From the NCBI GenBank assembly GCA_002212985.1, contig NBMY01000047.1:1-37498 (forward strand): 37,498 bases of DNA, in the 5' to 3' direction. Position 1 is the stretch's first letter; every line of letters starts with the position of its first letter. The DNA comes from Sphingobacteriales bacterium TSM_CSS. Lineage in GTDB: Bacteria > Bacteroidota > Bacteroidia > Chitinophagales > UBA2359. Below, one piece after another: positions 12,680 to 32,600 of the stretch. A model generated the notes under the pieces. It searched no databases and had not been told where the DNA came from. It saw nothing but the letters and a program-made list of their open reading frames with translations. A program made the position numbers and the translations under genes.

Positions 12680-12732
12680 TAAAAAAAAGCGGTTAACAAA
12701 TACAGTAAACATGAGGGGGTTGTTTATAATGG

Positions 12733-17300: not shown

Positions 17301-20300
17301 TGTCCGGCGGGTATGGTTGCTACTGCCATGGTGGCGGTGTAATCGCTGCCGGCATTGGCTGTACCGTTTGAGGTGGTATAGGTTACCGTAATAGCCGACG
17401 AAGATATTACCGAAGTACAGATTTGCAACGTAGCCGTGGGGTTAACCCCTTCGGTAACGGTAATGTCGTTAATGGTAAGGGTAGGTTGCGGGGCAACATC
17501 GTTATCTAAAATGGTAACTACGCCCTGCGGGTCGGCTATGGTAGCGTTGTTGGGGTTGGTAAGGTTTACCGTAAAGGTTTCGGTAGGTTCGTTTATGTTA
17601 TCGTCTATAATAGGTATGGTAACGTTTACACACGTTTGTCCGGCAGGAATGGTAGCCGTTCCGCTGGTAGTGGTATAATCGCTGCCGGCAATAGCGCTAC
17701 TGTTGCTGGTAACATATTGTACGGTAATAGGTGAACCACTTACACCGGATGTGCATATTTGCAGCGTGGCAGTACCTGCGTTTTCGTTTACCGTAATATC
17801 ATTAATGGTTAAGGTGGGTATTACGTTTGAGCAGGGTCCGGGCGAGGTTACTATTGTATTGGCTGCACAAGCAGGATTGGCAGTATCATTTACGTTTATG
17901 GTAATGTCTAAACCGTTGGGGAAGTAAAGCGGCGGCACAGATGGCCCGCCGGTGAACGGCCCTGCCGGGAATGGCCCCATAGGAACAGGTGTGTTGTACA
18001 GAGTAGGACCAAATTGGTAAACGCCCAAAGCTGCATTGTTGAACGAGCCCGACCATGTTGAACCTGTGCCTGCACCGGTAACGGTTAAAACAAAGGTGTA
18101 TGTATCGTCATTGGGGTTAGATGGCGTACCATTGTTGTTGCAGGCTTTACCAGTTATCTGAATACTAACCAAGCATGGCGGTGTATCCGTATCCAAAATA
18201 GTAACTACGCCCTGCGGGTCGGCTATGGTAGCGTTGTTGGGGTTGGTAAGGTTTACCGTAAAGGTTTCGGTAGGTTCGTTAATGTTGTCATCTATAATAG
18301 GTATGGTAACGTTTACACACGTTTGTCCGGCGGGTATGGTTGCTACTGCCATGGTGGCGGTGTAATCGCTGCCGGCATTGGCTGTACCGTTTGAGGTGGT
18401 ATAGGTTACCGTAATAGCCGACGAAGATATTACCGAAGTACAGATTTGCAACGTAGCCGTGGGGTTAACGCCTTCGGTAACGGTAATGTCGTTAATGGTA
18501 AGGGTAGGTTGGGCGCAAGTTGTTACAGTTATAACGGTTGAAGAAGTAGCCATACAGCCTTGTGCATTGGTAACCGAAACTGTATAGGTAGTTAGAGTGG
18601 TAGGATAAGCAATCGGGTTTGCAGCATATGCATTGCTTAAGCTGTTGGCGGGGCTCCAAACATAAGTTACATTTGAAGATGTACTGGTTGGGTTTCCGCC
18701 AATTTGAATGCTTTGCCCGCTGCAAACGGTTTGGTTTCCGCCGGCATTGGCAGTTGGGTTCAATGCAACGTTAACCACAACTGTAACCTGATCTGTACGA
18801 ACACAACCGTTTAAGGTAGTGGTTAGTGTGTAAGTGGTAGTAACAGGGGGGCTTGCAATAGGATTGGCAACGGTGTTGCTGTTTAAGTAGGTGTTGGGTG
18901 TCCATGTAAAAGTTGCGCCACCCGGGCCGGCGGGGCTGCCGCCAATTTGAGTGTACCCGCCCTGGCAAATTTCTTTATCGGGTCCGGCATTGGCAAATAC
19001 TTCGGGAGTAACCGAAACGCTTTTGGTGTAAGAAGCAGTACATCCATTTTTACTTACAGTAAGGGTAACGGTTTGGGTTGTTCCTACCGCGGCAGTACCA
19101 AATTGTGTAGTAGCACTGGTTCCGGTTGCAGTTTGCGGAGTTGCGGTGGTGCCAAAGTTCCAGGTATAGGTACAGGAAGCATCGGGATTTTGAGCTTGGA
19201 AAAGGGCACTTTCCAAAGCACAAATTGAATTGGGTCCTGTAATTCCCGATGAAATGGCAACTACATCTATGGAAACCCAATTGCTTTCGCCGTTGTAGGC
19301 AGTACAAGAAGCATCGTTTGGTGCTGCACATCGGCGGAACCATGTTTTAGCCGTTACACTGCCGGCCGGTGGGTCGTAAGAAGCACCGGTTGCACCGCTA
19401 ATGGTGGTAACACCGGATGCGGTACTACTTGAAGGAGCAGCAGCACCAACAAATTGTTTCCAGATGTATTTAACCCCTCCGCTGTAGGTAGAGGCGGCAT
19501 TGATAACACTGTTTATGGCAGTGGGGTCTGCTGTTGTGCTGCAAATGGTTTGGTTGCTGCCAATAGTTCCGCCGGTTATATCGTTGCAGTTAGGGCCGCA
19601 GTTGGCAACTGCTGATGCAGTTGTTGTACAACCATTGGCATCGGTAACGGTAACGGTGTAGGTTCCGTTTGCCACATTGCTCAAATTTTGAGTAGTTGCG
19701 CCATTGCTCCAAGCATAGGTGTAAGCTGGGCGTCCGCCCGATACGCTTAAGGTAATATTGCTGGTTGTTGCGGTGCAGGTGCTGTTGGCAGCAGCCGAAA
19801 TTGCAGCAACCGAAGTTAACCTGAAGTTAAAGTCTCCGATATTGCCGGTAGAACCGTTTACGGTAAACCAACCCGAAGCGCCAAAGAGTGTTTCTTGCAG
19901 GTTGGCACCATTGCCCATTTGGAACGGGTGCATATAAGTATTGATATTGAGCGTGGTTGAGCCACTTAAAGCAATAGTACCCGACATGCCCGAATAATAG
20001 CACCAACTGCCTCCGCCACTGTTAATACAAAGCGCGTAGTAAGGAACTCCGGTACAGGTTTTTCCGGTTAGGTTTACGTTTATGGTGGCTACAGTTCCGC
20101 TGCCGTTTGTGGCAGTACCTTGCAAAGTAGCAGTACCGTTGTTATACTCTGTTAAATAAACACTGTTAGCAACAAAACAGCCGCCGTTATTGGGCAGCAA
20201 CAACATATAAGAACCACAGCTTGTACCGCAGTTATCGTTGGTGCTTGTTACCTGATAGAGGTTGGTTATATTGCTGCAGGTATTTGTGCAGGAAGTAACA

Positions 20301-21346
20301 CTTACACTCACCCAGTTACTTTCGCCGTTGTAAACGGTACAAGAGGAGCTATTGGGCGCTGCACAACGGCGAAACCATGTAGTAGAAGTTACGCTGCCGG
20401 CAGGAGGGTCATACGTTGCACCGGTTGCTCCGCTAATTGTGGTTGCCAGCGATAGGTCGGAGGGTGCCGATGCGCCTACGTATTTCAACCATATATACTT
20501 AACCCCACCACTGAAAGAGGTTGTGGCAGCACTTACAGTGTTTATAACTGCCGGGTCGCCACCGGTACAAATAGTTTGGTTGCTGCCTATGGTTCCGCCG
20601 GTAATATCATTACAATTTACCGGTGCCGAGCAACAACCTTCAACGGTTATTTGGTCTATATCCCAAACACTTGTAGAATACCAATTTCCTATAGGTTTAT
20701 AAGCTACCAGTTCAAAATAAAAGGTAGAATTGCTTGAAAACAAAAAATCGGGGTCATTGCTAAGATTAATAGTTTGCAATTGCCATGAAGTAGTAAGGCT
20801 TAAATTAGAACTTTCATAAACTAAAGTACTACCCTTATAAATTCTGATACCATACTTTTGCAAATAGTTGTTGTTGTTACTGCTACCCGATAAGGTAGTT
20901 GCAACAGTAGGGCTTTTGGCATAGAATTTTAAAGCGGTTAATTGCCTTTGTGTAGTTGTGTTAATGGTTACATTAAACTTTACCCTATGAGACGAACCGG
21001 AAGGATAGGTGCTGTAGGAAGATCCCGAAACACACATTGCCGCGCTAGAACCATTTGCACCTGTTACACAAGAGTGTGTATAGGTAGATGGGCTGCTGCG
21101 GTACACGGTAGAAGCGCTCACTCCCGAACAAGAAGTTGTTGGATAAGTGGCGGTAAACTCTGAATAGCTGGAATAGCTGGAGCCGCAGGCATCCATATTC
21201 CAACTAACCAACGTAGACGGGGTACAGATACTTTGTGCATGGGTTTGTTGTGCGAATAACACAACCACAAACCCAATCACAAAATAAACCCAACTTGAAT
21301 TGCATACCCGATTAACTGCTGAAAAGACAGATAAAACAAATTTCAT
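14321..21346 (-). CDS. Giant T9SS-exported surface protein with Calx-beta and Ig-like repeats
   Basis: This encodes 2341 residues. The signal peptide is 38 residues with a long n-region (ending FAQQTHAQ). An N-terminal jelly-roll-like domain follows (about 40-243; LVSWNMDACG, FYFELVAYKP, WDIDQITVEGC). The body carries four modules beginning C-[NT]-D-I-T-G-G and ending WFRRCA...C, four related modules beginning C-[DN]-N-V-T with YRR[CG] endings, one SprB-like repeat (about 515-580), PKD/Ig-like domains (about 680-945), and five Calx-beta domains (about 946-1053, 1172-1507 in tandem, 1608-1715). Calx-beta marks are TLTINDITVTEG, AGSDYT, IPAGQTCV, DDNINEPTETFTVNL. The C-terminus (about 2255-2341) is a T9SS type A sorting domain: VMPVPASTVLNVQF, LLQVFDIAGRLV, GYYFIEITG. 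The protein is therefore secreted and anchored at the cell surface, probably as an adhesin; Calx-beta domains often bind calcium. It is monocistronic, with its own terminator at 14251-14290. Confidence 0.93.
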   Translation of the reverse strand: MKFVLSVFSAVNRVCNSSWVYFVIGFVVVLFAQQTHAQSICTPSTLVSWNMDACGSSYSSYSEFTATYPTTSCSGVSASTVYRSSPSTYTHSCVTGANGSSAAMCVSGSSYSTYPSGSSHRVKFNVTINTTTQRQLTALKFYAKSPTVATTLSGSSNNNNYLQKYGIRIYKGSTLVYESSNLSLTTSWQLQTINLSNDPDFLFSSNSTFYFELVAYKPIGNWYSTSVWDIDQITVEGCCSAPVNCNDITGGTIGSNQTICTGGDPAVINTVSAATTSFSGGVKYIWLKYVGASAPSDLSLATTISGATGATYDPPAGSVTSTTWFRRCAAPNSSSCTVYNGESNWVSVSVTSCTNTCSNITNLYQVTSTNDNCGTSCGSYMLLLPNNGGCFVANSVYLTEYNNGTATLQGTATNGSGTVATINVNLTGKTCTGVPYYALCINSGGGSWCYYSGMSGTIALSGSTTLNINTYMHPFQMGNGANLQETLFGASGWFTVNGSTGNIGDFNFRLTSVAAISAAANSTCTATTSNITLSVSGGRPAYTYAWSNGATTQNLSNVANGTYTVTVTDANGCTTTASAVANCGPNCNDITGGTIGSNQTICSTTADPTAINSVINAASTYSGGVKYIWKQFVGAAAPSSSTASGVTTISGATGASYDPPAGSVTAKTWFRRCAAPNDASCTAYNGESNWVSIDVVAISSGITGPNSICALESALFQAQNPDASCTYTWNFGTTATPQTATGTSATTQFGTAAVGTTQTVTLTVSKNGCTASYTKSVSVTPEVFANAGPDKEICQGGYTQIGGSPAGPGGATFTWTPNTYLNSNTVANPIASPPVTTTYTLTTTLNGCVRTDQVTVVVNVALNPTANAGGNQTVCSGQSIQIGGNPTSTSSNVTYVWSPANSLSNAYAANPIAYPTTLTTYTVSVTNAQGCMATSSTVITVTTCAQPTLTINDITVTEGVNPTATLQICTSVISSSAITVTYTTSNGTANAGSDYTATMAVATIPAGQTCVNVTIPIIDDNINEPTETFTVNLTNPNNATIADPQGVVTILDTDTPPCLVSIQITGKACNNNGTPSNPNDDTYTFVLTVTGAGTGSTWSGSFNNAALGVYQFGPTLYNTPVPMGPFPAGPFTGGPSVPPLYFPNGLDITINVNDTANPACAANTIVTSPGPCSNVIPTLTINDITVNENAGTATLQICTSGVSGSPITVQYVTSNSSAIAGSDYTTTSGTATIPAGQTCVNVTIPIIDDNINEPTETFTVNLTNPNNATIADPQGVVTILDNDVAPQPTLTINDITVTEGVNPTATLQICTSVISSSAITVTYTTSNGTANAGSDYTATMAVATIPAGQTCVNVTIPIIDDNINEPTETFTVNLTNPTNATIADPQGVVTILDNDVAPQPTLTINDITVTEGVNPTATLQICTSVISSSAITVTYTTSNGTANAGSDYTATMAVATIPAGQTCVTITIPIINDNINEPTETFTVNLTNPTNATIADPQGVVTILDNDVVTCDNVTFAGGIGYDESGVSPFDPSNIVQTAAASGGSGTLEYKWQQSTNGTTWTDISGATGMTYDPGVITQTTQYRRCVKRSNCTVWLNSNVVVKTVTAATLPKLNINDVTVIENAGTAILQVCASETSVSGITFTYTTVNGSATSGADYTTTTASATIPAGQTCVNISVPIIDDTTAEPTETFLVNLSSPTGATIQDGQGVVTILDNDSTSTCDNVTNPGSIGYYQSGCAPLDPSEIIEIAAPTGGSGALEYVWQSSANNWLWTNISGATASSYDPGPVTASTFYRRGVRRLGCTAFQYTNSVLKEVTGPCSTTCDNVTFAGNIGYDESGVSPFDPANMVETVMPSGGSGTFEYKWQQSTNGTTWTDISGATGMTYNPGVITQTTQYRRCIRRANCTIWVNSNVVIKTVVPSVDCNDITGGAIGSNQTICSGGDPAAITSLSPATTSYAGGVKYVWMCYVGANPPVSMNDATLVAGATAASYDPPAGSVTAKKWFRRCAAVNDASCTTYPAETEWIYVDVTTCTTNCTDITGGSIGYSQTICTSGDPAAFVSISPATTTFAGGVKYQWFKYVGATAPASTSLATAIAGATGATYDAPAGSVTSKSWFRRCAAPNSSSCTVYYGETEWIFVETTTCGGTCNNVTDAGQIGYYEAKCAPFDPEALVETIAPVGGNGTLEYMWQSSLDNWTWTTIAGANSISYDPPVITQSTYYRRGVRRAGCTDYMYGNSVYKRNTCQGKTGEMLADEGISDIKVMPVPASTVLNVQFDSMMEQTDALLQVFDIAGRLVMQQNLFIQIGFNGTAIDVSNLHSGYYFIEITGSEVRQRTKFVVTR
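16825..17832 (-). repeat. Three tandem 336-bp Calx-beta coding repeats
   Basis: Units begin at 16825, 17161 and 17497, each with CATCGTTATC, giving an exact period of 336 bp (112 codons). The first two are nearly identical over the whole unit at DNA level, including silent positions. The third matches until about 17640 and then diverges. They encode Calx-beta domains of the giant protein 14321-21346. Confidence 0.9.
18188..18512 (-). repeat. Fourth near-identical Calx-beta coding unit, separated from the tandem array
   Basis: This matches the 336-bp units of 16825-17832 almost base for base (GCCCTGCGGGTCGGCTATGG and most of what follows). It is separated from the array by about 350 bp coding for an unrelated domain. 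The fifth Calx-beta copy at about 16200-16520 is much more diverged at DNA level. Confidence 0.85.
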
Positions 21347-22816
21347 GTGAATTTAATTATTTGGTTTAATTAATGTTTTAAATTTGCTAGTTTTCGCTTT
21401 AACTTTGTTGTTTGCCGGTTAAAAAACAGGCTCAGTTATTTGCCAGATTTAATTACAGATACATAACATGACTCAAAACAATGATGGCAATTGGTAAATG
21501 CAGACAAACTCATTCTTTACAAAATTTAGCTGTTTAAGTTTAGGGGCGTTTAAGGGTTTAGTGCCAACAAAAACTTGTTGCAAAATTATGACAATTTTAT
21601 GGTGTCTTTACTTTTTTGAGCTGCTTACAATCAGTTTAACAATAAACTTGCTCATTACGCAAACACATATATACATATTTTACAGCAACAAGTTTGCACA
21701 CATTTGCCCTGCCTTATAATCTTAAACCTTATACACTCCTGAACAAAATATCAATATTAATACCTGTTAATCAAAACTATAAAAAACACAAATATACTTA
21801 ATTTATTTTGAATTACTTTCCTGTAAATTCATATATTTACACAAGAAAACACTTACTACGAAATACTAAACAACTTGTTTCGTTTCTTACAATACTTGAC
21901 TATTTGCTTGGCCTTGATTTGCCCCAACAAGCACAAAAAGCAAATAGGCACCTACTATTTTTGCACTATTGGTTACTGCCACCCAGTTTTACCCCTTTGC
22001 GCTTTACCCAAAAGCAACAAACAGTTACCCCCCGCCCTAAAATAGTTATTAAACCTGCAATACAAGCACCCGCACCTGTTTTCTTGTCGCTTGTTTTCAG
22101 AAGGGCAGTTGTTGTGTGTGTGGGTTATTTATTTCATGTGTACTCATTTATATTGTATTGAAACAGGTGCCTCTCTTCAGGTTATATTAAACACAGTACA
22201 AACAAAACCCTTTAGTGTGTATGGCTGCATGTTGGTACAGCATAACATTAAAACAGTTTAAACGCACAGCCGCACAATGTGATTGGAAGCAGGTAGGTAT
22301 TTGGCACTTACATCAACTTGTTAAAAAAATGCCTGACCTGCGAAATGAATAGCTGTCTGTAACCCGAATAAGTATAAACATACCTGATTTATATTTACAC
22401 AGTGCTATATTTTTATCTATTACTTTTTTGTTTAGCAGCAAACATAAAGCACACAAAGTATTATACGTAATGTTTTAATTTAGAACATTGCAACTTGCTG
22501 TTCAAGATAGGCGGGGGCGGGCAAAAAAATAATTTTTGGCACCATTTTTGATAATTTGGCAATCCACTTTTTATATATCATCAAGCAATGCAACCTTTTT
22601 ACAATAGTTTCGTAGCACAATAGTATGCGCTATACCATATTGTTAAAATTTATTTTACTATTTAACTTTCACATTATAGGGTTTTTACAAAATAATTATT
22701 GTTATAATCAACTATTTTAAAGATGACAGATTTCTATTTGTTTGCATAAATAAAAGTGGAAAACACAAATTTCGGAACTGTTTTTTTTATATGCAGTTGC
22801 AAAAGTGGTCAATAAA
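21347..22816. other. Long A/T-rich intergenic region between divergent genes
   Basis: About 1.47 kb between the minus-strand giant gene and the plus-strand peptide promoter. It contains many A/T runs and no convincing gene; a 117-codon frame at 21808-22161 lacks any recognisable feature. Two minus-strand -7-like elements, TAATTTTG at 21581-21588 and TATATTTG at 21789-21796, could drive the giant gene, but neither has a proper -33 element. Confidence 0.5.
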
Positions 22817-22848
22817 TTTGTCAGTTCTGTGTAAAAATTCTACCTTTA
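22817..22848 (+). promoter_or_regulatory. Bacteroidota-type promoter of the first GG-leader peptide
   Basis: A -33 TTTG at 22817-22820 and a -7 TACCTTTA at 22841-22848 are separated by 20 nt, close to the Bacteroidota consensus. The predicted start is near 22855, giving a leader of about 87 nt before ATG 22942. TTTGTCA and the bases after the -7 element (CATCG) recur at the 28170 promoter. Confidence 0.65.
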
Positions 22849-22941
22849 CATCGTCAAACAATTCAAAAAGCAGGCATTGCCCAAAGAATTGGAGTAGCAA
22901 AACGCTCGATAATAACCCACAAACAACTAAATTCTTTTATC

Positions 22942-23118
22942 ATGAACAACACAACAGCATTTGCCCAATTTGCGCTAAGCAAAGAAGCACAGCAACAAGT
23001 AACCGGCGGAAACGCCCTGCCACGATACCCGGTGGTTGTTACCACCTCTAACGGTACGCTTACTTCATCGGTAAACACCTGGACAGTAACCGGCACCGCA
23101 CAACCCAAACTCTGGTAA
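22942..23118 (+). CDS. Short peptide with double-glycine leader and SSVNTW core motif
   Basis: This encodes 58 residues. The leader reads MNNTTAFAQFALSKEAQQQV then TGG, matching the double-glycine leader spacing LSxx[E]xxx[IV]xGG used by bacteriocin-type and RiPP precursors. GG is at residues 22-23. Cleavage there would release a 35-residue core, NALPRYPVVV... ending QPKLW, with SSVNTW at 42-47 and no cysteine. Two longer relatives lie at 28278 and 29080 with GG at the same positions and the same SSVNTW. A good promoter (22817-22848) precedes it and a hairpin with a T-run (23406-23437) follows. GG leaders are normally recognised by C39-peptidase ABC exporters, or by modification enzymes; none is in this window. 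The activity is unknown. Confidence 0.8.
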   Translation: MNNTTAFAQFALSKEAQQQVTGGNALPRYPVVVTTSNGTLTSSVNTWTVTGTAQPKLW

Positions 23119-23405
23119 TTGTTACAAAAACTCTTTTAAAGAACTGCATTCTTTTCAAACTTACAGTGGCTACCCCTTATTAACCCAAACAACTTATACC
23201 CTACCCCTTAACCACCCGTATTAAACCCTCTGTTTTACAACAATTGCCAATGGCTACACCCTTAACCCAAACAACTAACCCTTACCCCTTTTTATACCCC
23301 CTTACCCAACAACTACATTCTTTTTTGTGCCGAAAGGCAACCACCCAACAGAAAAATGGTAAACAGGCAATGGCAACAACTTATGCTTGTTTTTATCGGA
23401 AACAG

Positions 23406-23437
23406 AAAGCAGCGCTTTAACCGGGCGCTGTTTTTTT
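23406..23437 (+). terminator. Intrinsic terminator between convergent genes
   Basis: CAGCGC at 23410-23415 pairs with GCGCTG at 23425-23430, and the stem can be extended by AAAG/TTTT pairing. Seven T's follow on the plus strand. It lies about 290 bp after the peptide stop at 23118 and just beyond the stop of the convergent EamA gene. The stretch 23119-23405 is C/T-rich on the plus strand (many CCCTTACCC-like runs) and has no supported gene. Confidence 0.65.
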
Positions 23438-23441
23438 GTGC

Positions 23442-24332
23442 CTATAGGTTTCGGAAAGCCTTCCGGTTAGCCCTTTCGGTAATAACTATGCGAATGCTGA
23501 GGGCAGTAATAATAATAAGTCCGCCGCATAATGCCTGCCCCGATGGTTGTTCGCCATAGCCAATCCAAACCCAAATAGGGTTTAGAACCGGTTCAATCAT
23601 TGCAATAAGGGCACTTTCAATGGCAAGGGTGTATTTTAGTCCGTAGGTAAACAGCAGGTAACCCAATCCAATTTGTACAAAGCCCAAAAATGCCAGCATA
23701 CCTGCCTGTGCAAGTGTGGGCAGTGGCGCCTGCACAAATGATATAAACCCTGCTGCCATTACCAGTATATTACCCCAAAAAATGGCTGCCGTATAATGGC
23801 TTCTGTCGTTAAGGCGCTGTGCCAGCAGCAAACCCGCCAAAAACACCCCCGAAACAAGGGCAATAATATTACCCCAGCCGCCGCCGCCCTGCAGGTTGTC
23901 TGAAAAAAACAGCGCCATGCCGGCAATACATATAATAATGGTTATTATATTTATTCTCTGCAGCCGCAATCCGAATAACCACGGCTCGGCCAGCAATACA
24001 TATACCGGAGCGGTGTATTGCAAAAATATGGCATTGGCGGCGGTGGTCATTTTAGTTGCCGATACAAAACTAATGAGCAATAAAGCATAAAACCCCGATG
24101 CCAGCAAGCTGAGCCGGTTTACCTTTAGTACCTCTTTTCTGTAAACCACACCAAAAACCAAGGCAGCGCAAAAGGAACGGTAAAATAAAATGGTAAAGGC
24201 CGAAAACGGGAGCAGTTTTATAAACAAACCGCCTGTGCTCCATAATACCGATGCCACCACCACAGCCGCCATGCCGCGCCGGTGCTCATCGGGCGGTATT
24301 TGATGGAGGGTGTTGCGGATGTTGTCTTTCAT
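23442..24332 (-). CDS. EamA/DMT-family inner-membrane transporter
   Basis: This encodes 296 residues with about ten hydrophobic membrane segments in two EamA halves (about 21-145 and 154-285), the usual size for drug/metabolite-transporter superfamily permeases. Typical marks are SVLWSTGGLFIKLLPFS and FYRSFCAALVF near the start, MTTAANAIFLQYTAPVYVLL at the end of the first half, and ALIAMIEPVLNPIWVWIGYGEQPS in the second half. Members export or import small metabolites such as amino acids; the substrate cannot be told here. The gene is convergent with the peptide gene at 22942 and divergent from the LVIVD lipoprotein gene at 24479. A -7-like element (TATTTTTG, 24337-24344 minus) ends only 4 nt before the ATG, so the mRNA may be nearly leaderless, or the promoter may lie elsewhere. 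Confidence 0.93.
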   Translation of the reverse strand: MKDNIRNTLHQIPPDEHRRGMAAVVVASVLWSTGGLFIKLLPFSAFTILFYRSFCAALVFGVVYRKEVLKVNRLSLLASGFYALLLISFVSATKMTTAANAIFLQYTAPVYVLLAEPWLFGLRLQRINIITIIICIAGMALFFSDNLQGGGGWGNIIALVSGVFLAGLLLAQRLNDRSHYTAAIFWGNILVMAAGFISFVQAPLPTLAQAGMLAFLGFVQIGLGYLLFTYGLKYTLAIESALIAMIEPVLNPIWVWIGYGEQPSGQALCGGLIIITALSIRIVITERANRKAFRNL

Positions 24333-24478
24333 CGGACAAAAATAAGGCTATTTTCGGCCCGAAGCACAATTTTCGGGTAAATACTGCACGGCAAGGCAAC
24401 CATTGGGGCAGCCAATTCCGTTTTTATTACAGGATTAGTGTAAACCAGAATTTTACCCCGTTTTAAACTTTGCTCATC

Positions 24479-25768
24479 ATGAAAAAACTATCGTTCTTTT
24501 TTACCTCCGCCTTGGCTGTGCTTGCGTTTTTACTGGCAGCCACCACCTCCTGCACCGATAAATGCGAGCAAACCTACACCTATATGGCTTACGAGCCGGT
24601 GTATCTTTCATTTGCAGAACTGCGGCAACCGCTTGTGGTTACAGCCGGGCGCGAGTTGAAACAACCGGGTAAAATCTATTTTAAAGCCCCTTACCTGCTT
24701 ATTAATGAGCGCAACGAAGGCTTACATGTTATTGACAACAGCAACCCCGCCAGCCCGCAAAATGTAGCATTTATTGAAATACCCGGAAATATTGATATGG
24801 CGGTTAAAAACAACGTGTTATATGCCGATAGCTATACCGATTTATTGGCCATAGACATTAGCAACCCCGAAAATGCGACCCTGCTTTCGCGAACCGAAAA
24901 CGCTTTTACCGATATTTACCCCACCGACCCCAACCTGGGCATTGTTACAGGTTATAACGAGGTAGAACGCACCGAAGTGTATGACTGTAACCAGGTGTAT
25001 CCCATGCCTTACCTCTACAACGATGTTGCCGAAGCCGGCGGAATGACCGATAACAGCATCGGTGGCGGCGCTCCAACATCGGGCGGCGCCAACAACGCTC
25101 CCTCCAACGGCGTGGGCGGCTCTATGGCACGCTTTACCCTTGCCAGCGATTACCTTTATATAGTTACTCCCAATAACCTGCAAACCTATTACCTAAGCAA
25201 CCCCACACAACCCCAGCTTACCACTACTACTTATATAGGGTGGAATATTGAAACCATTTTCCCCTTCCGCAACCACCTGTTAATTGGTTCGCAAACGGGT
25301 ATGTTTGTTTATGATTTGGTAAACCCCGCCAACCCGTCTTATGTTAGCCAGTTTGCCCACATAACCAGTTGCGACCCCGTAGTAGCCGAAGGGAACTATG
25401 CCTATGTAACCTTGCGCTCCGGCACACCCTGCCAGGGTTTTACCAACGAATTGGATGTATTGGACATTAGCACCCTTACCAACCCGCAATTGGTAAAAAC
25501 TTACCCCATGACCAACCCGCACGGCCTGGGCATTGACAATGGCACCTTGTTTATTTGCGACGGCGATGCCGGCCTCAAAATCTACAATGCCACCGATGTT
25601 TATACCATTGACCAACACCAACTTGCCCACTACGACAATATTAACGCCTTTGATGTAATACCTTATAATCAGGTATTGCTTATGATTGGCAGCAACGGAT
25701 TGTACCAGTACGATTACAGCAACCTGCAAAATATTACCCTGCTAAGTACCATACCTGTAAAACCCTGA
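24479..25768 (+). CDS. LVIVD-repeat outer-membrane lipoprotein
   Basis: This encodes 429 residues from ATG 24479 (MKKLSFFFTSALAVLAFLLA); a TTG three codons upstream is in frame but unlikely. A lipoprotein-type signal ends ATTSC, with C25 as the probable lipidated residue, although Thr at -3 is not ideal. The mature part has LVIVD-type repeats that form a propeller: LLINERNEGLHVIDNSNP, LYADSYTDLLAIDISNPE, LLIGSQTGMFVYDLVNPANP, AYVTLRSGTPC...LDVLDIS, LFICDGDAGLKIYNATD, LLMIGSNGLYQYDYSN. A Gly/Asn/Ser-rich loop (about 185-212) interrupts the repeats. Such proteins are common in Bacteroidota and are thought to sit on the cell surface or in the periplasm; no precise function is known. It is divergent from the EamA gene. 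The hairpin at 25870-25906 probably ends its transcript. Confidence 0.9.
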   Translation: MKKLSFFFTSALAVLAFLLAATTSCTDKCEQTYTYMAYEPVYLSFAELRQPLVVTAGRELKQPGKIYFKAPYLLINERNEGLHVIDNSNPASPQNVAFIEIPGNIDMAVKNNVLYADSYTDLLAIDISNPENATLLSRTENAFTDIYPTDPNLGIVTGYNEVERTEVYDCNQVYPMPYLYNDVAEAGGMTDNSIGGGAPTSGGANNAPSNGVGGSMARFTLASDYLYIVTPNNLQTYYLSNPTQPQLTTTTYIGWNIETIFPFRNHLLIGSQTGMFVYDLVNPANPSYVSQFAHITSCDPVVAEGNYAYVTLRSGTPCQGFTNELDVLDISTLTNPQLVKTYPMTNPHGLGIDNGTLFICDGDAGLKIYNATDVYTIDQHQLAHYDNINAFDVIPYNQVLLMIGSNGLYQYDYSNLQNITLLSTIPVKP

Positions 25769-25869
25769 TTTAACGCCTCGTCTGCCTGAACCATAAGTTA
25801 ATTCCGTCTTTTAACAACATACCGGCTTTCTTATACCGGCAGTTTTAAACAGCGCTGTTTTTCAAATAA

Positions 25870-25906
25870 AGCCCCCGGTGTTGTAAAGCATCGGGGCTAT
25901 TTTTTG
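25870..25906 (+). terminator. Intrinsic terminator of the LVIVD lipoprotein gene
   Basis: AGCCCC(C)GGTG pairs with CATCGGGGCT around an 8-nt loop, with one bulged C, and is followed by ATTTTTT. It lies about 100 bp after the stop at 25768. A perfect 14-bp palindrome, AAACAGCGCTGTTT, lies just upstream at 25847-25860. Confidence 0.7.
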
Positions 25907-26128
25907 CCTCTGCCATAAGGCAGGCAGCAAAGGGCAGTTTTTCAAAACACCCACACACTAAAAAATATTTCCCTTCGTTTACACTAAAGCAAAATTTACA
26001 CCACTCCTCCATTTATTGCAGCAGGTAGTTTTTAATAACTCCACATCGGGTTGTTCTCAACCGGTGACGTGGTTTTTGTGTTATGCTATCTGCTTTTTTT
26101 GGTCACCCATCTAATTACCTTTTACCAA

Positions 26129-27622
26129 ATGTTGCATTTTTTGCATCGCCCTTTCCATGTTTTGTTGTTGTTGCTGGCATTGCAGCAGGTTTTTCCGGCG
26201 TTGACTGCTTTATCGCAAACGCCACAAACGCAGCAGGTTGTTACAGTATGGGGTACTGTTGCGCAGGCTAAAAACATACTCATCAGCATTGACATGGCAG
26301 AAAACCCCATTAGCGGAAAAATTGTAGGCTATGCCTCCAAAATAGATTCATCGGGCAAATTTATGATACAGTTGCCACTCAAATCGCCCGCTTTCGCCCA
26401 GCTTTTTCATGCCAATAACAGTGTGCCGGTTTTCCTGCACCCGGGCGACAACGTGCAGGTTACTGTAAATGCATTGGATATGGCGAATACGGTAAAATTT
26501 GACGGGCGCGGCGCCGACCACTGCCGCCTTACCGCCGAGTATTTCCGAAAATTTAACACCGCCGCCCAAAGAAGCCTGCTTACCCAAAAAATGACCGATC
26601 TGGAACCGACCGACTTTATAGCCTACGTTGAGGCTGTACGAAAACAAAAATTGCAACTTGTAGCCGATTATAAAGTAAAAGGCAACCTGTCTCAGGTGTG
26701 CGAAAACTTTGTAAAAACCCAAACCAACGTTGAATGGGCAAATGCCCTTTTAGACTACCCTTTTGCGCATAGCCTTAACAGCAGCGAACTTACCCCCGCC
26801 AACCTTCCGCCCGATTATTACGCCTTTATGAATGAAGTGGACCTGCAAAATCAGGAAGCCATGCAGCTAAGTATTTATACCGATTATTTACTTAAATTTA
26901 TATCAAACCGATTTTCTAAAACCATTGAAAGGGCAGACTATAACACCGATAATTTTTATGCCGATAAGTACGAGTTTGCCAAAACCATGCTAACGGGCAA
27001 GGCACTGTATTATGTGCAGGGCATTTGCATTACCGATGCCTGCACCTACGGTAAAGTAGAAAATATTGCCGCCAAATTTGACGAATACCTTGTTGCCTGC
27101 CCTTTTGCCAACTATACCCAAGCCGTTACCGAAATTTACGACCGCGCTTTTAGAACCTGCGCCGGGCAAAAAGCACCCGATTTTTCGCTCATGAACCTGG
27201 CCGGCGATACCATTACCCTGCAACAACTCAAAGGAAAAGTGTTGTACTTAGATTTCTGGGCTACATGGTGCGGCCCTTGTGTGAGAGAAATGGGGTACTC
27301 TGAACAGTTGAAAGACAAGTTTAAAGGTAAAGACATTGCCTTTGTCTATATTTCGGTAGATGATAACCCGATGGACTGGGAGCACTACCTGCACAACACC
27401 CTGCTTTTTACCCCCGATAGCACCCTGCACCTTTTTGCCAACGGCCTTACCTCAGAAACAGGTAAAACCTACAACATTAAAGGGGTACCCCGCTACCTTA
27501 TTATAGATGCCGATGGCATAATAGCCGACAGCAACGCCAAACGCCCCAGCGACCCGGGTATTGTTGCCGATTTGGAAAAGGTGCTTTACCGCCGCCCGTT
27601 GCCAAACCCCGGCAACAATTAG
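26129..27622 (+). CDS. TlpA/ResA-like thiol-disulfide oxidoreductase
   Basis: This encodes 497 residues from ATG 26129, which gives a clear signal peptide (MLHFLHRPFHVLLLLLALQQ, cleavage after about LTALSQ). The open frame extends upstream to a TTG at 26051, but that would place a second hydrophobic stretch before the signal. An N-terminal beta-rich domain like those on many Bacteroidota TlpA proteins comes first (GTVAQAKNILISIDM, IDSSGKFMIQLPL, FLHPGDNVQVTV), then a helical middle region, then an AhpC/TSA-type thioredoxin domain. The domain shows APDFSLMNLAGDTITLQQLKGK, the redox motif W-C-G-P-C at 380-384, and the cis-proline in KGVPRYLIID at P454. It probably reduces or exchanges disulfides in periplasmic proteins. 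No cytochrome or Dsb partner is next to it. A -7-like TACCTTTT ends 5 nt before the ATG. Confidence 0.92.
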   Translation: MLHFLHRPFHVLLLLLALQQVFPALTALSQTPQTQQVVTVWGTVAQAKNILISIDMAENPISGKIVGYASKIDSSGKFMIQLPLKSPAFAQLFHANNSVPVFLHPGDNVQVTVNALDMANTVKFDGRGADHCRLTAEYFRKFNTAAQRSLLTQKMTDLEPTDFIAYVEAVRKQKLQLVADYKVKGNLSQVCENFVKTQTNVEWANALLDYPFAHSLNSSELTPANLPPDYYAFMNEVDLQNQEAMQLSIYTDYLLKFISNRFSKTIERADYNTDNFYADKYEFAKTMLTGKALYYVQGICITDACTYGKVENIAAKFDEYLVACPFANYTQAVTEIYDRAFRTCAGQKAPDFSLMNLAGDTITLQQLKGKVLYLDFWATWCGPCVREMGYSEQLKDKFKGKDIAFVYISVDDNPMDWEHYLHNTLLFTPDSTLHLFANGLTSETGKTYNIKGVPRYLIIDADGIIADSNAKRPSDPGIVADLEKVLYRRPLPNPGNN

Positions 27623-28169
27623 TATTGTAAAAACAGCAACAGGGTAACCACACCCATACTGTATGGCCGGCTCACCTGCCTGTCTGTATTTCTATTGTTA
27701 TATTGCCGAACAAGAATTTGTTGCTGCCAAATCATCGGGTTTGTTGCGCCAGACAGGCAGTGTATTGTGCAACTCTTCATTGGGTTGCCTTGCCTTCAAA
27801 ACGCTGCCTTCTACTTTTTACTTGCACATACGCAATGTGTTTTACTATGCCCGAAACACCCCAAAATTGCTTTATGAAAACAGCTACCAAAGGAGGCAGC
27901 TTATAAGTTGGTAAACCCAACAATTTAAATGCATCAAGCTATAAACAAAAATGTTGCATTTTTCGTAACAAGTTAAATTTTATTAAAAATAAACATGCAC
28001 TTCTTCTGCGCATCTTTATATGACTTATTAACAGTGTTTTACAAAGATTTAATTGTTTAATTTTAAAAATTTTTCTTTTTTTATCCTTCTTATTCATGGT
28101 CTATTAAGGGCGGTTTCATCAAAAATTGGCGCTACTTTTTTAGCACTTGACTGCAAAAACGCAAAAAGT
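27623..28169. other. Intergenic region before the tandem peptide locus
   Basis: About 550 bp. Overlapping short frames near 27663-27914 have no recognisable feature and are judged fortuitous. The right half (about 27920-28110) is strongly A/T-rich. No clear terminator hairpin was found for the thioredoxin gene. Confidence 0.5.
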
Positions 28170-28200
28170 TTTGTCATTTAATTGCAACGCCGTAACTTTG
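28170..28200 (+). promoter_or_regulatory. Bacteroidota-type promoter of the tandem GG-leader peptides
   Basis: A -33 TTTG at 28170-28173 and a -7 TAACTTTG at 28193-28200 are spaced by 19 nt, a full match to the Bacteroidota consensus. The start is predicted near 28206, giving about 72 nt of leader before ATG 28278. TTTGTCA and TAACTTTGCATCG closely match the promoter at 22817 (TTTGTCA, TACCTTTACATCG). Confidence 0.8.
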
Positions 28201-28277
28201 CATCGCACAAAGCGCTCAACACCCTTACTGTCTTGCAAATTAAACAAAACCCATTCATACAATTAAATTCTTGCACA

Positions 28278-28487
28278 ATGAACCGCATCGACAGCTTCCT
28301 TCAGTTCTCCTTATCCCAGCAACAACAAAACAACATTACCGGTGGCAACAACAGAGTGCCCCAAACCGAGGCGGCTACCCTGCAGGTTATACCGCAAATT
28401 ATTCCGCAACTTACCTCTTCGGTAAATACCTGGTCAAACGAGGCAGCCTTCATCACCGGCAATACCACCACAAGAGGCAGAGGATAA
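28278..28487 (+). CDS. Short peptide with double-glycine leader, SSVNTW family, copy 1
   Basis: This encodes 69 residues. The leader MNRIDSFLQFSLSQQQQNNI-TGG has the exact double-glycine spacing LSxxxxxxIxGG, with GG at 22-23. The predicted 46-residue core starts NNRVPQTEAATLQV, contains the SSVNTW motif at 47-52, is rich in Asn, Thr, Ser and Gln, has no cysteine and ends TTTRGRG. A full-consensus promoter lies at 28170-28200. The stop TAA (28485-28487) is followed in the same frame, without further stops, by a second SSVNTW module (28530-28625) before a strong terminator. The partner copy at 29080 has the same core except A57T. It resembles bacteriocin/RiPP precursors in leader only; the core matches no class I know. 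No processing enzyme is adjacent. Confidence 0.82.
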   Translation: MNRIDSFLQFSLSQQQQNNITGGNNRVPQTEAATLQVIPQIIPQLTSSVNTWSNEAAFITGNTTTRGRG

Positions 28488-28529
28488 CCTTTAACTCCAA
28501 ACAGGTTAACGGCTCTGATAACCCAAAAC

Positions 28530-28625
28530 ATGCCCGCAGTGCTTATGTCTTCGGTTAATACCTGGTCTTCCGAAACCAATACTGCCGTTAGCAACACAAC
28601 TTCTGAAAATACCGTTTCAAGATAG
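28530..28625 (+). CDS. Leaderless second SSVNTW module, 31 codons
   Basis: ATG 28530 opens MPAVLMSSVNTWSSETNTAV... ending ENTVSR-stop. It is in the same frame as the peptide gene ending at 28487; the 42 nt between are free of stops, so the only break is the single TAA. The module aligns with the core of that peptide (IIPQLTSSVNTWSNE against NMPAVLMSSVNTWSSE), so it is an internal duplication. It has no GG leader. It could be a separate tiny peptide, a readthrough extension, or a decayed repeat. Translation is unproven. Confidence 0.4.
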   Translation: MPAVLMSSVNTWSSETNTAVSNTTSENTVSR

Positions 28626-28654
28626 TTCCTCTTATACCCCCTTTCTCTAAAGCC

Positions 28655-28690
28655 AAAAGCGGCATCTGTAACAACAGGTGCCGCTTTTTC
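28655..28690 (+). terminator. Strong intrinsic terminator of peptide locus copy 1
   Basis: AAAAGCGGCA (28655-28664) plus CTGT pairs with ACAG plus TGCCGCTTTT (to 28688) around an AACA loop, and the T-run continues to 28689. It is repeated identically at 29457-29492. Confidence 0.88.
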
Positions 28691-29079
28691 TTTGCCCTCC
28701 GAATACACGGTTTTACAAGCAATTTATACCCAAAACGCCTCACTACCACCAATACTGAAGGGTAAAAGCGGCAAGCTTTAAACAAAAGTGTATCTTTTCC
28801 GTACCGGCTCCGCCAAATTGCAAACAACATATTAGCAAATATCAACTTAACCAAAATGCTGATAACCTTGCATATACAAACCACAAAACACATCATCTGT
28901 ATGTTCCAAAAGTCAGGAATACCAAGAAAAACATTTCTTGAACAAATTTTCCCATCCCAATGACCTTCTTTTTTCACAACCCCTAAAATTCCGGTAACCA
29001 ACTTTTATTTCCTTCGTCTAAAAAACAAATCAACAAAAACAATTCAATTTTAACTTTTACCGCTCTAAATAACCACACC
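28691..29079. other. Intergenic region between the tandem peptide cassettes
   Basis: About 390 bp without a supported gene. Imperfect -7 elements occur (TATCTTTT 28791-28798, TAACCTTG 28863-28870, TAACTTTT 29051-29058), but none is paired with a -33 TTTG, so how copy 2 is transcribed is unclear. Confidence 0.45.
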
Positions 29080-29289
29080 ATGAACAGCTTTAATACCTTT
29101 CAGCAATTCGCCTTAACCCAGCAACAACAAACCAACATTACCGGCGGAAACAACAGAGTGCCCCAAACCGAGGCGGCTACCCTGCAGGTTATACCGCAAA
29201 TTATTCCGCAGCTTACTTCTTCGGTAAATACCTGGTCAAACGAGGCAACTTTCATTACCGGCAATACCACCACAAGAGGCAGAGGATAA
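29080..29289 (+). CDS. Short peptide with double-glycine leader, SSVNTW family, copy 2
   Basis: This encodes 69 residues; the leader is MNSFNTFQQFALTQQQQTNI-TGG, with GG at 22-23 as in the other two family members. The core is identical to copy 1 (28278) except Thr for Ala at residue 57. From the GG onward the two genes differ at five synonymous codons and one amino-acid codon, while the leaders differ more, mostly in residues 3-13. The same TAA and in-frame downstream module follow, and then the same terminator. No clear promoter lies directly upstream, so expression may depend on a weak element or on readthrough of the terminator at 28655. The function is unknown; it is probably exported after cleavage at GG. 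Confidence 0.82.
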   Translation: MNSFNTFQQFALTQQQQTNITGGNNRVPQTEAATLQVIPQIIPQLTSSVNTWSNEATFITGNTTTRGRG

Positions 29290-29331
29290 CCTTTAACTCC
29301 AAACAGGTTAACGGCTCTGATAACCCAAAAC

Positions 29332-29427
29332 ATGCCCGCAGTGCTTATGTCTTCGGTTAATACATGGTCTTCCCAAACCAATACTGCCGTTAGCAACACA
29401 ACTTCTGCAAATACCGTTTCAAGATAA
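29332..29427 (+). CDS. Leaderless second SSVNTW module, copy 2
   Basis: This encodes 31 residues, MPAVLMSSVNTWSSQTNTAV... ending ANTVSR-stop, in the same frame as the peptide ending at 29289 and separated from it by one TAA and 42 stop-free nt. Compared with 28530-28625 it has two amino-acid changes (E to Q, E to A), one silent change, and TAA in place of TAG, so the stop is kept. It has the same three interpretations as copy 1. Confidence 0.4.
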   Translation: MPAVLMSSVNTWSSQTNTAVSNTTSANTVSR

Positions 29428-29456
29428 TTCCTTTTATACTCTCTCATCCCAAAGCC

Positions 29457-29492
29457 AAAAGCGGCATCTGTAACAACAGGTGCCGCTTTTTC
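29457..29492 (+). terminator. Strong intrinsic terminator of peptide locus copy 2
   Basis: Same hairpin as at 28655-28690 (AAAAGCGGCA...TGCCGCTTTTT), 802 bp downstream, followed by a T-rich run. Confidence 0.88.
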
Positions 29493-29578
29493 TTTTTGGC
29501 CGGCTTATCCATTAGTTCCAAAAAGGATAAAACCGTGTAAATAGATTACTCCTATAGGTTTCTTCCTATTAGAATAAG

Positions 29579-29615
29579 AAAAGGGCAACCCGGTTGTTAC
29601 CCGGGCTGCCCTTTT
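29579..29615 (-). terminator. Terminator of the right-hand giant surface protein gene
   Basis: AAAAGGGCA(A)CCCGG pairs with CCGGG(C)TGCCCTTTT with one mismatch and a short loop. A and T runs on both sides make it usable in both directions. It lies 28 bp beyond the stop of the minus-strand gene at 29643 and also backs up the plus-strand peptide transcripts. Confidence 0.85.
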
Positions 29616-29642
29616 ACTTATACGCAGTGTTAAGCTGCGAGC

Positions 29643-32600
29643 TTATTTACCGTTAAGCAGTAATTTGTAACGTACTTTACTACCGTCGGCAGATGTAAGT
29701 TCTGCAATATACATACCTGCGGGTAAATGCTTGGCATTAAACTCAACACTATACACTTCATCAGCTTCAACCTGACCTTTGAAGAGCGAGCCTACTTCCT
29801 TACCATCTAATGAGTACACTATCAGTGATGCATTGCCAGATACGGCAGATGCAAATTCAATGGTAGTTTGGTTATCAAACGGGTTGGGGTAGGCAATCAA
29901 AGATTCGCCATCGGCAAGTTTACCACGCCCACGGATTTGTTTGGGCACCCAATACCAGCCTACGGTTTCCTGTCCGCTGCAATCTGTTACCACTACAGTG
30001 TACCAACCCGAAGGCAAGTTAGTAAGGGTATAAGATGCACCGCCGGTTACAGGGCCGGGTAATGCGCTCGTCCAGTTAGACGGGCCAGACCATTCGTAGG
30101 TGTATTGGTTATTACCTGTTCCGCAAGGAGTGCCACCTTCTACGTAAATAGTTACTGAACCGTTTGCAGCGTTGCTTGCGCTTGATGCAATGGTGTAATC
30201 ATAAATGTCAACCAAGGCAGAAGGATCTACATCAGGTACGTTATCAAACTCAAGCGCCTCATCGGTACAACCGTTTGCATCGGTAACTACTAAGTTCCAG
30301 GTAGCGTTATCGGCATAGACAACAGTAATAATTACGCCGGTGTTAGTCGGGTTTTCATTTACTGCATATTGTACATAGCCGCTTAAACCAGTCCATTGAT
30401 ATCCGTAAGGCTGCGTACCACCGGTTACCTCAAGTTGAACCACATTATAGAAGGTAGGTACAACGCCATCTCCCTGATACAAACTGCTTACCAGCGGGTT
30501 TTCGGGGAATGCGTCTGGTACTGTAAATCCAATGCCGCCCGATACATCGTAACAACCTGCGCTGGTGCTGCCAATAGCTGCAATGGTTCCGCCAATAGCT
30601 GGTGCAGGCACGGGCGGGTTGGCAGTTCTTGCACTGTAGCTGTACACGGTGTAGTTGCCCGCCGGCAAACCGCTGCCCAAAGTAGTAAAGTTACCCGAGG
30701 TGCTGATGGCAACAATTAAGCCGGTAGCATTATCTACAACAACATAAGCATGGCTGTAAGTATCGGGCGTGGCAGAACATACTGTTGACGAAGTGGCGAA
30801 ACCGGTAGCAGATGCGATAACCGGATCGAACGGACACAAACCACCCGATACCGTAAGCGTACCTGCATTGGCCTGACAGCAAGCATTCACCACAACAGGT
30901 ATGGTGCAACTTGCCGGATTGCCGCTTGCATCAACAATGGTCCAAACTACAAAGGTAGTACCAATGGGGTAAACGCCCGAAGCATCGGCTGTTCCATTGA
31001 AGCTGTTGGTTATGGATACAATCTGGCAGTTGTCAATGTAGGTGGGCACCGGAACGGTAACAAACTGGCCGGTTGCGTTAATGGTGCAATCGGCAGTACA
31101 TACCGGTGCTGGAGCCTGACAATTGATGGTGGGGCTTTGATTATCAACAACTACCACAATGGTTTGGCAGGTTGAAGTGTTTCCGTTAATATCGGTAACA
31201 GTCCATACTACCACAGTTGTACCTACCGGGTAGATACCCGTTGCGTTTGAAGTATTGTTAAAGCTGTTGGTAATACTTTGTACGCCACAGTTGTCGGAAG
31301 CAATAAGCGGTGCAATGGTTACCGGAGCGCTACACAAGCCGGGCGATGCCGGTACAAAGTAGTCATAGTCATCGGTTTCTTCCGCCACGGCCGGGTCTTC
31401 GGGACAGATAATTGTCGGCGCTTGGGTATCATTAATGGTAACAGTCATGCTGCACGTACCGGTATTGCCATTAATATCTACCACAGACCAAACAACAGTA
31501 GTAACACCTACGGGGTAAATATCGCTGGCGTTATGACCCCAGTTATAACTGTTCATCGGATCCTGCGTAATACCACAGTTATCAGACAAGTTGGTGGGCA
31601 AGCCGACTACTGCATAACCAAAACACTGACCAAAAATGCTGCCGGCAGTTACGTTGGGCGGACAAGTGAGCGTGGGTGCCTGGTTATCTACTACTGTTAC
31701 GGTAAAGCTGCAGGTAGCAGTATTTCCTGCGGCATCGGTAACGGTATAAACAACGGTGGTGGTACCTTCGGGGAACTCATCGCCCGGCTGGTAATTGCTG
31801 GTAAGCACAAGGTCTGCCGCATTTTGTGCGCTGTTCAGGGCTGCCTGAGCTGCCAGGAAGTTGTTGAGCGCCGTAGTATAAGATGCAAATACCAGGTTAA
31901 ATGCTGCCTGTGCCGCATTTACGTTAGTCTGTGCGGTAAGTACTGCTGCGGCAAGTATGGGGTTGGTCGGGTTTGCTGCCAAGTTGGTTTGCGCAGCAGT
32001 AAGCACGTTAATAGCTGCCTGCAGGTTATTTGAAGCAGTTAGTAAGGCTGCCTGAGCTGCTGTAAGCGTAGTTTGTGCCTGCTGATAAGCATTAATTACA
32101 GATTGGCTTACACTGGCGCTACAATTATCGCTCACAAGTGGAAGATCCCATGTTACAATGGCAGAGCAGAACAACTGACCCGGAGGACCTACGGCCGTGT
32201 TTACCGTTATGTTTTGCGGGCAAACCACAAACTGTGGCGCCTGATTATCGTTAACGGTAACCGTATAGCTGCAGGTTGCTGTATTACCACTGGCATCGGT
32301 AACCGTCCAGGTAACTACCGATACGCCACCCGGATACGTACCGTTAGCGCTTACAGTACCGGGTGCTCCGCTGTTTGGCGCTGCGCCGTTGGGGTCAAAG
32401 GCAACCGGCGGAGATACGGGATCGCCTCCGGTATCGGTAGTGTTTACTGCAGTAAAGCTAACCGAGTAAACGCCGCAGTTATCGGAAGTAAATGGTGCCT
32501 GCGCTGTTACAGTAGCAGAACATTGACCGGGAGCTGCATTTACCGTTACATTTGCCGGACAGAAAATACCCGGCGCCTGGTTATCGGTTACAATAATATT

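Follow-up and report, generated by a model that had tools for sequence, protein, structure and literature searches.

Short double-glycine-leader peptides with a common LTSSVNTW core in a Chitinophagales genome, and a candidate unlinked C39 exporter

Among small double-glycine (GG) peptides exported by transporters with a C39 peptidase domain, EbfG1-4 appear to be the nearest tested precedent that we found for a role outside the cell: efficient secretion of these small GG-motif proteins needs the C39 cysteine of PteB, and they are required for biofilm (PMC4997328), while EbfG1-3 form amyloid (PMC9981879). On the side of substrate reading, the groove of LahT binds V-4, L-7 and L-12, and variants with a charged residue at -4 or -7 are not processed (PMC6363468). 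The literature that we found on GG-leader peptides of Bacteroidetes/Bacteroidota with C39 or type I exporters concerns graspetides, lanthipeptides, bacteroidetocins, microcins and transporters; the leader analyzed here was not found described in it, and the string SSVNTW was not found in any publication by our search. The present study concerns three short peptide genes (genes 1, 2 and 3) on a stretch of 37,498 nucleotides (the window), contig C168:1-37498 of the genome of Sphingobacteriales bacterium TSM_CSS (host genome G000; 4.49 Mb, 173 contigs, 87% complete). The explanation that we favor, to which we give about an even chance as a whole, is that their products are unmodified GG peptides, cleaved and exported in trans by a C39 transporter encoded on contig C78, and then serving a surface or matrix role.

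All three peptides have a 23-residue leader with GG at residues 22-23, lack cysteine and carry LTSSVNTW in the core (Table 1). The three genes, starting at 22942, 28278 and 29080 and encoding 58, 69 and 69 residues, had been proposed in a sequence-only reading, together with the GG position, the cysteine-free cores and the shared SSVNTW, and all of this was confirmed; the LS spacing assigned to every leader holds for genes 1 and 2, but gene 3 has LT. Over seven aligned sequences, three of them from the window, M1, N2, F7, Q9, F10, Q17, T21, G22, G23 and LTSSVNTW are invariant. A common string of eight residues, as found between the 58-mer and 69-mer cores, was reached in none of 10,000 shuffles of both cores (maximum 6). 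Ser, Thr, Asn and Gln account for 15/35 residues of the 58-mer core, 20/46 of the 69-mer core and 46% of the third core, and the 58-mer core contains neither Asp nor Glu. Comparison of the three peptides with Pfam and NCBIfam gave nothing above cut-off, with a sub-threshold DUF936 match to two of them, which agrees with the earlier view that the core belongs to no recognized class. The AlphaFold model (predicted local distance difference test, pLDDT, 51) contains a single helix at residues 14-21 and no confident fold; this, together with the core composition, is compatible with a matrix role but does not demonstrate one.

Relatives with both GG and SSVNTW, whose absence would have counted against the family in the sequence-only reading, occur in the same-genus genome G002, which comes from activated sludge and belongs to the UBA2359 lineage of Chitinophagales (PMC9230771), and among database proteins (P0003, P0004 and P0006). 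An alignment search of the protein database gave six family matches, three of them identical to the window peptides and three being these relatives, and a single-protein query gave three proteins; none of the six is named or has a Pfam domain. Pattern searches matched 100 stretches of genome contigs, one of which is a relative, and 46 stretches of viral contigs, none of which was confirmed. The same-genus genome G001 (99% complete) gave matches at background level only (best E 0.41 and 0.98).

In the genomes searched, the leader is confined to one lineage. A profile of 15 leaders, with seeds from G000, G002, G003, G014, G018, P0003 and P0006, was run on 298 genomes of the host's order, including 20 of its family; at E <= 0.001 it matched at least 25 places in 8 genomes, all within the family (8/20), and no place in the 278 order genomes outside it. 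Five of the eight genomes had supplied seeds, and G005, G007 and G010 had not. When a hidden Markov model (HMM) of 31 leaders from other genera was applied to the six-frame translation of the window, the three peptide genes scored 33.1, 29.3 and 22.1 bits, compared with 5.0 bits for the next-best frame and 12.0 for the best of 20 shuffled windows, although the test is partly circular because those leaders had been collected with a profile including window-type leaders. A five-leader profile, in which four leaders adjoin a C39 gene and the fifth replaces a truncated neighbor with the same visible leader end, ranked the same three genes first (26.7, 23.5 and 12.6 bits), gene 1 lying barely above the next frame (10.7). 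Across 38 distinct leaders, a set that includes weak rows (E up to 3.8) and was chosen by a profile rewarding the same positions, V/I/T-4 and a large hydrophobic residue at -12 are present in all 38, F-14 in 34, F-17 in 33 and Q-8 in 27.

A short GG leader with conserved hydrophobic positions is accompanied by a C39 exporter in the same genome, which supports the earlier notion that the peptides resemble GG-leader export substrates. The host encodes two full-length C39 ATP-binding cassette (ABC) transporters, on contigs C78 and C161, and none was found among the scanned open reading frames of the window, as the sequence-only reading had noted. Its suggestion that the exporter may be a distant one is supported, and the total lack of a GG-peptidase exporter that it had considered damaging is not what the host shows. 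The C39 domains of both transporters align with the ComA peptidase through the catalytic Cys, His and Asp motifs. In the C78 locus (G000:C78:5215-10126) the transporter gene at 5215 is followed by TolC-like (OEP, 9e-47) and HlyD (HlyD_3, 6e-12) genes, an arrangement also seen in G002; no TolC or HlyD adaptor genes adjoin the second transporter (C161:27027). In three relatives leader genes lie next to a C78-type exporter: two directly upstream of a transporter 69% identical to that of C78 in G007, one directly upstream, truncated by a contig end, in G003, and two downstream in G014.

In the phylogeny of 24 C39 transporters the C78 type groups into one clade (support 98/93) with ten rows, each from a different genome. 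Fragments and distant matches (G006:C138, G015:C352, G003:C241, the second G018:C323 match, G009:C160 and G019:C437) were left out; the G019 row, which lies at a contig start, has no C39 domain, and the initial residues are missing from the G010 row. The search with PF03412 covered 8 genomes, and exporters of the other 12 family genomes were collected by similarity to the C78 protein. Among the matches listed, the clade is present in 8/8 leader genomes and in 2/12 others, giving one-sided p values of 3.6e-4 by genome and 4.1e-3 by genus, which serve only as a guide because the clade was picked after seeing the tree and the genomes are related and incomplete. Leader genomes also possess C39 genes outside this clade.

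According to the explanation that we favor, the C78 exporter would recognize the leader through its C39 domain and cut after GG, leaving cores that start NALPRY and NNRVPQ, and the peptides would be exported in trans through HlyD and TolC with no tailoring before export; the Ser/Thr/Asn/Gln-rich cores would then act outside the cell as surface or matrix peptides, like EbfG1-4. Its parts differ in strength: C39 export of the peptides is probable, the lack of tailoring somewhat less so, and a matrix or surface role, argued by analogy, is tentative. The genomes directly show the leader and where it occurs, the common core motif, exporter genes with the C39 catalytic residues, the neighboring leader and exporter genes of three relatives, and the co-occurrence of leader and exporter clade. 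From these data we infer that C78 rather than C161 supplies the exporter, that cleavage follows GG and that the peptides are unmodified. Several observations weigh against this explanation. A large hydrophobic residue is found at -7 in just 6/38 leaders, and LahT needs such a residue; the leader is therefore regarded as a variant. The host encodes the exporter apart from the peptides and has a second C39 exporter, and in G008 and G019 the exporter clade is present with no leader match. The clade was chosen post hoc among related and incomplete genomes, and over the whole C39 tree the leader label is not clustered (171/500 shuffles as low). Finally, the structure model is of low confidence, and the DNA conservation of gene 1 described below could stem from recent exchange.

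Behind the leader, other family members carry unrelated cores: Tyr/Ser/Cys-rich in G005 and G018, ERPWVLRxLSAxP in G014, AKxVSxPxVTLP-like in G002 and G003, Lys/Arg/Glu-rich in G007, and Arg-rich in G014 and G018. The AKxVSxPxVTLP peptides form a second core family, present in two genera behind a leader of this kind (L106:3170-3439 in G002; L040 and L052 in G003), and in G003 such a peptide also adjoins the exporter. Tandem leader peptides with low-complexity Tyr/Ser/Gly/Cys-rich cores were observed in L092, L096, L101 and L103 (G018 and G005). Strong differences between the cores of different genomes are also what an arms race would produce, and the peptides could be unmodified microcin-like (class II) bacteriocins that take the same C39-HlyD-TolC route and kill related bacteria. 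GG leaders with C39 exporters are classical for bacteriocins, and bacteroidetocins are GG-leader toxins of Bacteroidota (PMC6671954). Inspection by eye of 11 loci, of which ten contain leader genes, revealed no recurring immunity-gene candidate, a mild point against toxins; no immunity-gene partner was seen adjoining the window genes, Cys is absent from the cores, and none of the named bacteriocin families was matched. We consider toxins possible but rather unlikely and place the surface or matrix role slightly ahead of the microcin role, which would be nearly as likely.

The sequence-only reading had also allowed for an unlinked tailoring enzyme, that is, for precursors of ribosomally synthesized and post-translationally modified peptides (RiPPs) modified by such an enzyme before export. 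RiPP enzymes do occur in the family: G005, G006 and G018 have matches above cut-off to TIGR04192, the grasp-with-spasm ATP-grasp, G005 and G018 also to Lant_dehydr_N, and G007 to LANC_like, and in G005 a grasp-with-spasm pair adjoins a C78-type exporter. The host, however, gave no match for LANC_like or YcaO (5 genomes searched), for TIGR04192 (10 genomes searched, with none in G001 and G002 either) or for Lant_dehydr_N (9 genomes searched); since its genome is only 87% complete, absence from the sequence is not proof of absence. The host has one SPASM protein, which speaks for modification, but matches of similar strength exist in four other tested genomes, including G001, where no peptide was found. 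Along with the cysteine-free cores and the 58-mer core free of Asp and Glu, these results do not support the tailoring proposal, and we regard it as improbable; as far as the sequences indicate, the family makes modified peptides, but on present evidence the host does not. The G005 pair (TIGR04192 and TIGR04193; L110:1529-3795) lies on contig G005:C733, which holds three TIGR04192 matches. On G005:C92 and G018:C288, some 2 kb upstream of Lant_dehydr_N genes, the end of the leader profile is weakly matched by sequences that are perhaps lanthipeptide precursors.

Over the 5.5 kb common to the window and G002, conservation is highest in gene 1 and its upstream region. A G002 contig carrying the 58-mer ortholog aligns with positions 22765-28239 at 82.7% and ends close to where gene 2 would lie; the region upstream of gene 1 is identical at 173/177 positions (98%), above any compared neighbor region, and similarity ends at 22765. 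The 58-mer gene is identical at 166/177 positions and the hairpin region 23396-23441 at 44/46, whereas the EamA, LVIVD and TlpA-like genes reach 82-88% and the remaining intergenic stretches 59-86%. Synonymous divergence (dS) is 0.15 (6 changes) for the peptide gene and 0.46-0.95 for three neighbor genes. High conservation of gene 1 may reflect either DNA-level constraint or a recent exchange, which the data do not separate. The pattern TTTGTCA, 16-17 bases, TAnCTTTnCATCG has two matches only on both strands of the window, one upstream of gene 1 and one upstream of gene 2; the same scan found no such pair for gene 3. We take this pattern to fit the Bacteroidota promoter consensus. Such promoter-like sites of their own, and a short invariant motif within otherwise different cores, would suit a role as extracellular signals (pheromones) in which a receptor recognizes SSVNTW; signals are exported by the GG/C39 route in the case of ComC and ComA. 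No receptor or regulator was seen adjoining the genes, no search aimed at receptors having been made, and the cores behind other leaders of the family are unrelated; we therefore give the signal proposal little weight.

Beyond the TAA of each 69-mer gene the frame stays open into a leaderless SSVNTW core, a feature absent from the sequence-only reading, although the end of the stretch that it delimited (29427) fits the end of the second core. The core of P0006, a protein of 72 residues that has the usual leader, resembles the second core (16/26 identical, score 87) more than the first (15/29, score 69), and because of this resemblance the second cores look like cores that have lost their leader. 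We also considered translation past the stop into this core but found no evidence of it; the resemblance to P0006 suggests leader loss instead. Self-alignment of the window places the 69-mers in a duplicated block, and 15/69 leader bases differ between the two units as against 9/279 over the stretch that runs from the first core through the second (p = 2e-6), while the 100 bases upstream of the units are unrelated (67/100 differ). Most simply, one core block would have come to stand behind two different leaders and upstream regions through recombination or gene conversion. The small size of the frames, second cores that look like decay, a near-identity of the 69-mer cores that is largely due to recent duplication, and a ratio of nonsynonymous to synonymous divergence (dN/dS) of 0.32 for gene 1, calculated on just 12 changes, would also be expected of non-functional frames arising by chance or as decaying duplicates. 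The same leader with fixed spacing in three window genes and seven other genomes, the relatives in other records and the promoter-like pair upstream of two genes make this very improbable.

A broader proposal is that the leader is a family-specific double-glycine dialect (F-17, F-14, L-12, Q-8, V/I/T-4, no hydrophobic -7), which a single clade of C39 exporters reads in trans and which serves as a general secretion code for hypervariable unrelated peptides, whose core cassettes are duplicated, homogenized and re-attached to other leaders or promoters by recombination. We hold this to be a little short of an even chance.

Table 1. Coordinates of peptide genes and associated elements in the window
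Feature	Position	Strand	Details
Peptide gene 1	22942..23118	+	58 residues; leader 22942-23010, GG; LTSSVNTW in core; ortholog in G002
Peptide gene 2	28278..28487	+	69 residues; leader 28278-28346, GG; LTSSVNTW in core
Peptide gene 3	29080..29289	+	69 residues; leader 29080-29148, GG; core nearly identical to that of gene 2
Conserved region upstream of gene 1	22765..22941	+	promoter-like TTTGTCA (22817) and TACCTTTA (22841)
Promoter-like TTTGTCA and TAACTTTG upstream of gene 2	28170..28200	+	same pattern as at 22817
Terminator-like hairpin and T run after gene 1	23410..23437	+	about 290 bases downstream; read from the sequence
Terminator-like hairpin and T run, end of duplicated unit	28655..28692	+	sequence reading and self-alignment
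Terminator-like hairpin and T run, second copy	29457..29496	+	sequence reading and self-alignment
Second SSVNTW core, leaderless, after gene 2 stop	28488..28625	+	in frame; predicted ATG 28530
Second SSVNTW core, leaderless, after gene 3 stop	29290..29427	+	in frame; predicted ATG 29332

The peptide region is flanked by giant frames resembling repetitive surface proteins (14321-21346, 2341 residues; 29643-37496, more than 2600 residues). At 10922-13800 a CCP_MauG di-haem cytochrome c peroxidase adjoins a protein that has a short match to copper amine oxidase, and a TlpA/ResA-like thiol-disulfide oxidoreductase is encoded between the peptide genes at 26081-27622; a thiol oxidoreductase is also present in bacteroidetocin loci, but the window cores are free of Cys. 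An Rfam scan of 22000-29700 gave no match.

If the favored explanation is true, the lineage secretes a set of small peptides via one exporter, and it is the signal, not the cargo, that is conserved. Such peptides would escape mining that relies on an exporter or tailoring enzyme being encoded next to the precursor, and the leader would offer a handle for listing the whole secreted set. The absent hydrophobic residue at -7 further leads to a testable prediction on how C39 domains read their substrates.

Compared with known systems, the window peptides share with EbfG1-4 and PteB of Synechococcus elongatus PCC 7942 the small size, the GG motif, a C39 transporter and the presence of several peptides per genome; the likeness rests on size, GG motif and C39 export rather than on sequence comparison, and the biofilm role was tested for EbfG alone. 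The EbfG genes form one operon, with the C39 gene adjoining by gene number, whereas the exporter of the window peptides would be unlinked. Bacteroidetocins are likewise GG-leader peptides of Bacteroidota with a C39-type ABC transporter, but they have leaders of 15-16 residues and at least two Cys, in contrast to the 23-residue leader and Cys-free cores found here, and their genes adjoin exporter, membrane-protein and usually thiol-oxidoreductase genes (PMC6671954). Lanthipeptides need Cys and LanB/LanC or LanM, at odds with Cys-free cores in a host with no LANC_like or Lant_dehydr_N match. Grasp-with-spasm graspetides (TIGR04192/TIGR04193) occur in the same family, in G005 beside a C78-type exporter, but graspetides need an ATP-grasp maturase and Asp/Glu, while the host has no TIGR04192 match (other ATP-grasp families were not searched) and the 58-mer core has no Asp or Glu. 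With canonical C39 substrates, those of LahT and ComA, the window-type leaders have in common the GG site, V/I/T-4 and a large hydrophobic residue at -12, and they depart from LahT substrates in a mostly polar -7 and in the common F-14, F-17 and Q-8 (PMC6363468). The export of GG peptides is a known process, and what appears to be new, judged from the literature that we found, is the leader subtype and its unlinked exporter.

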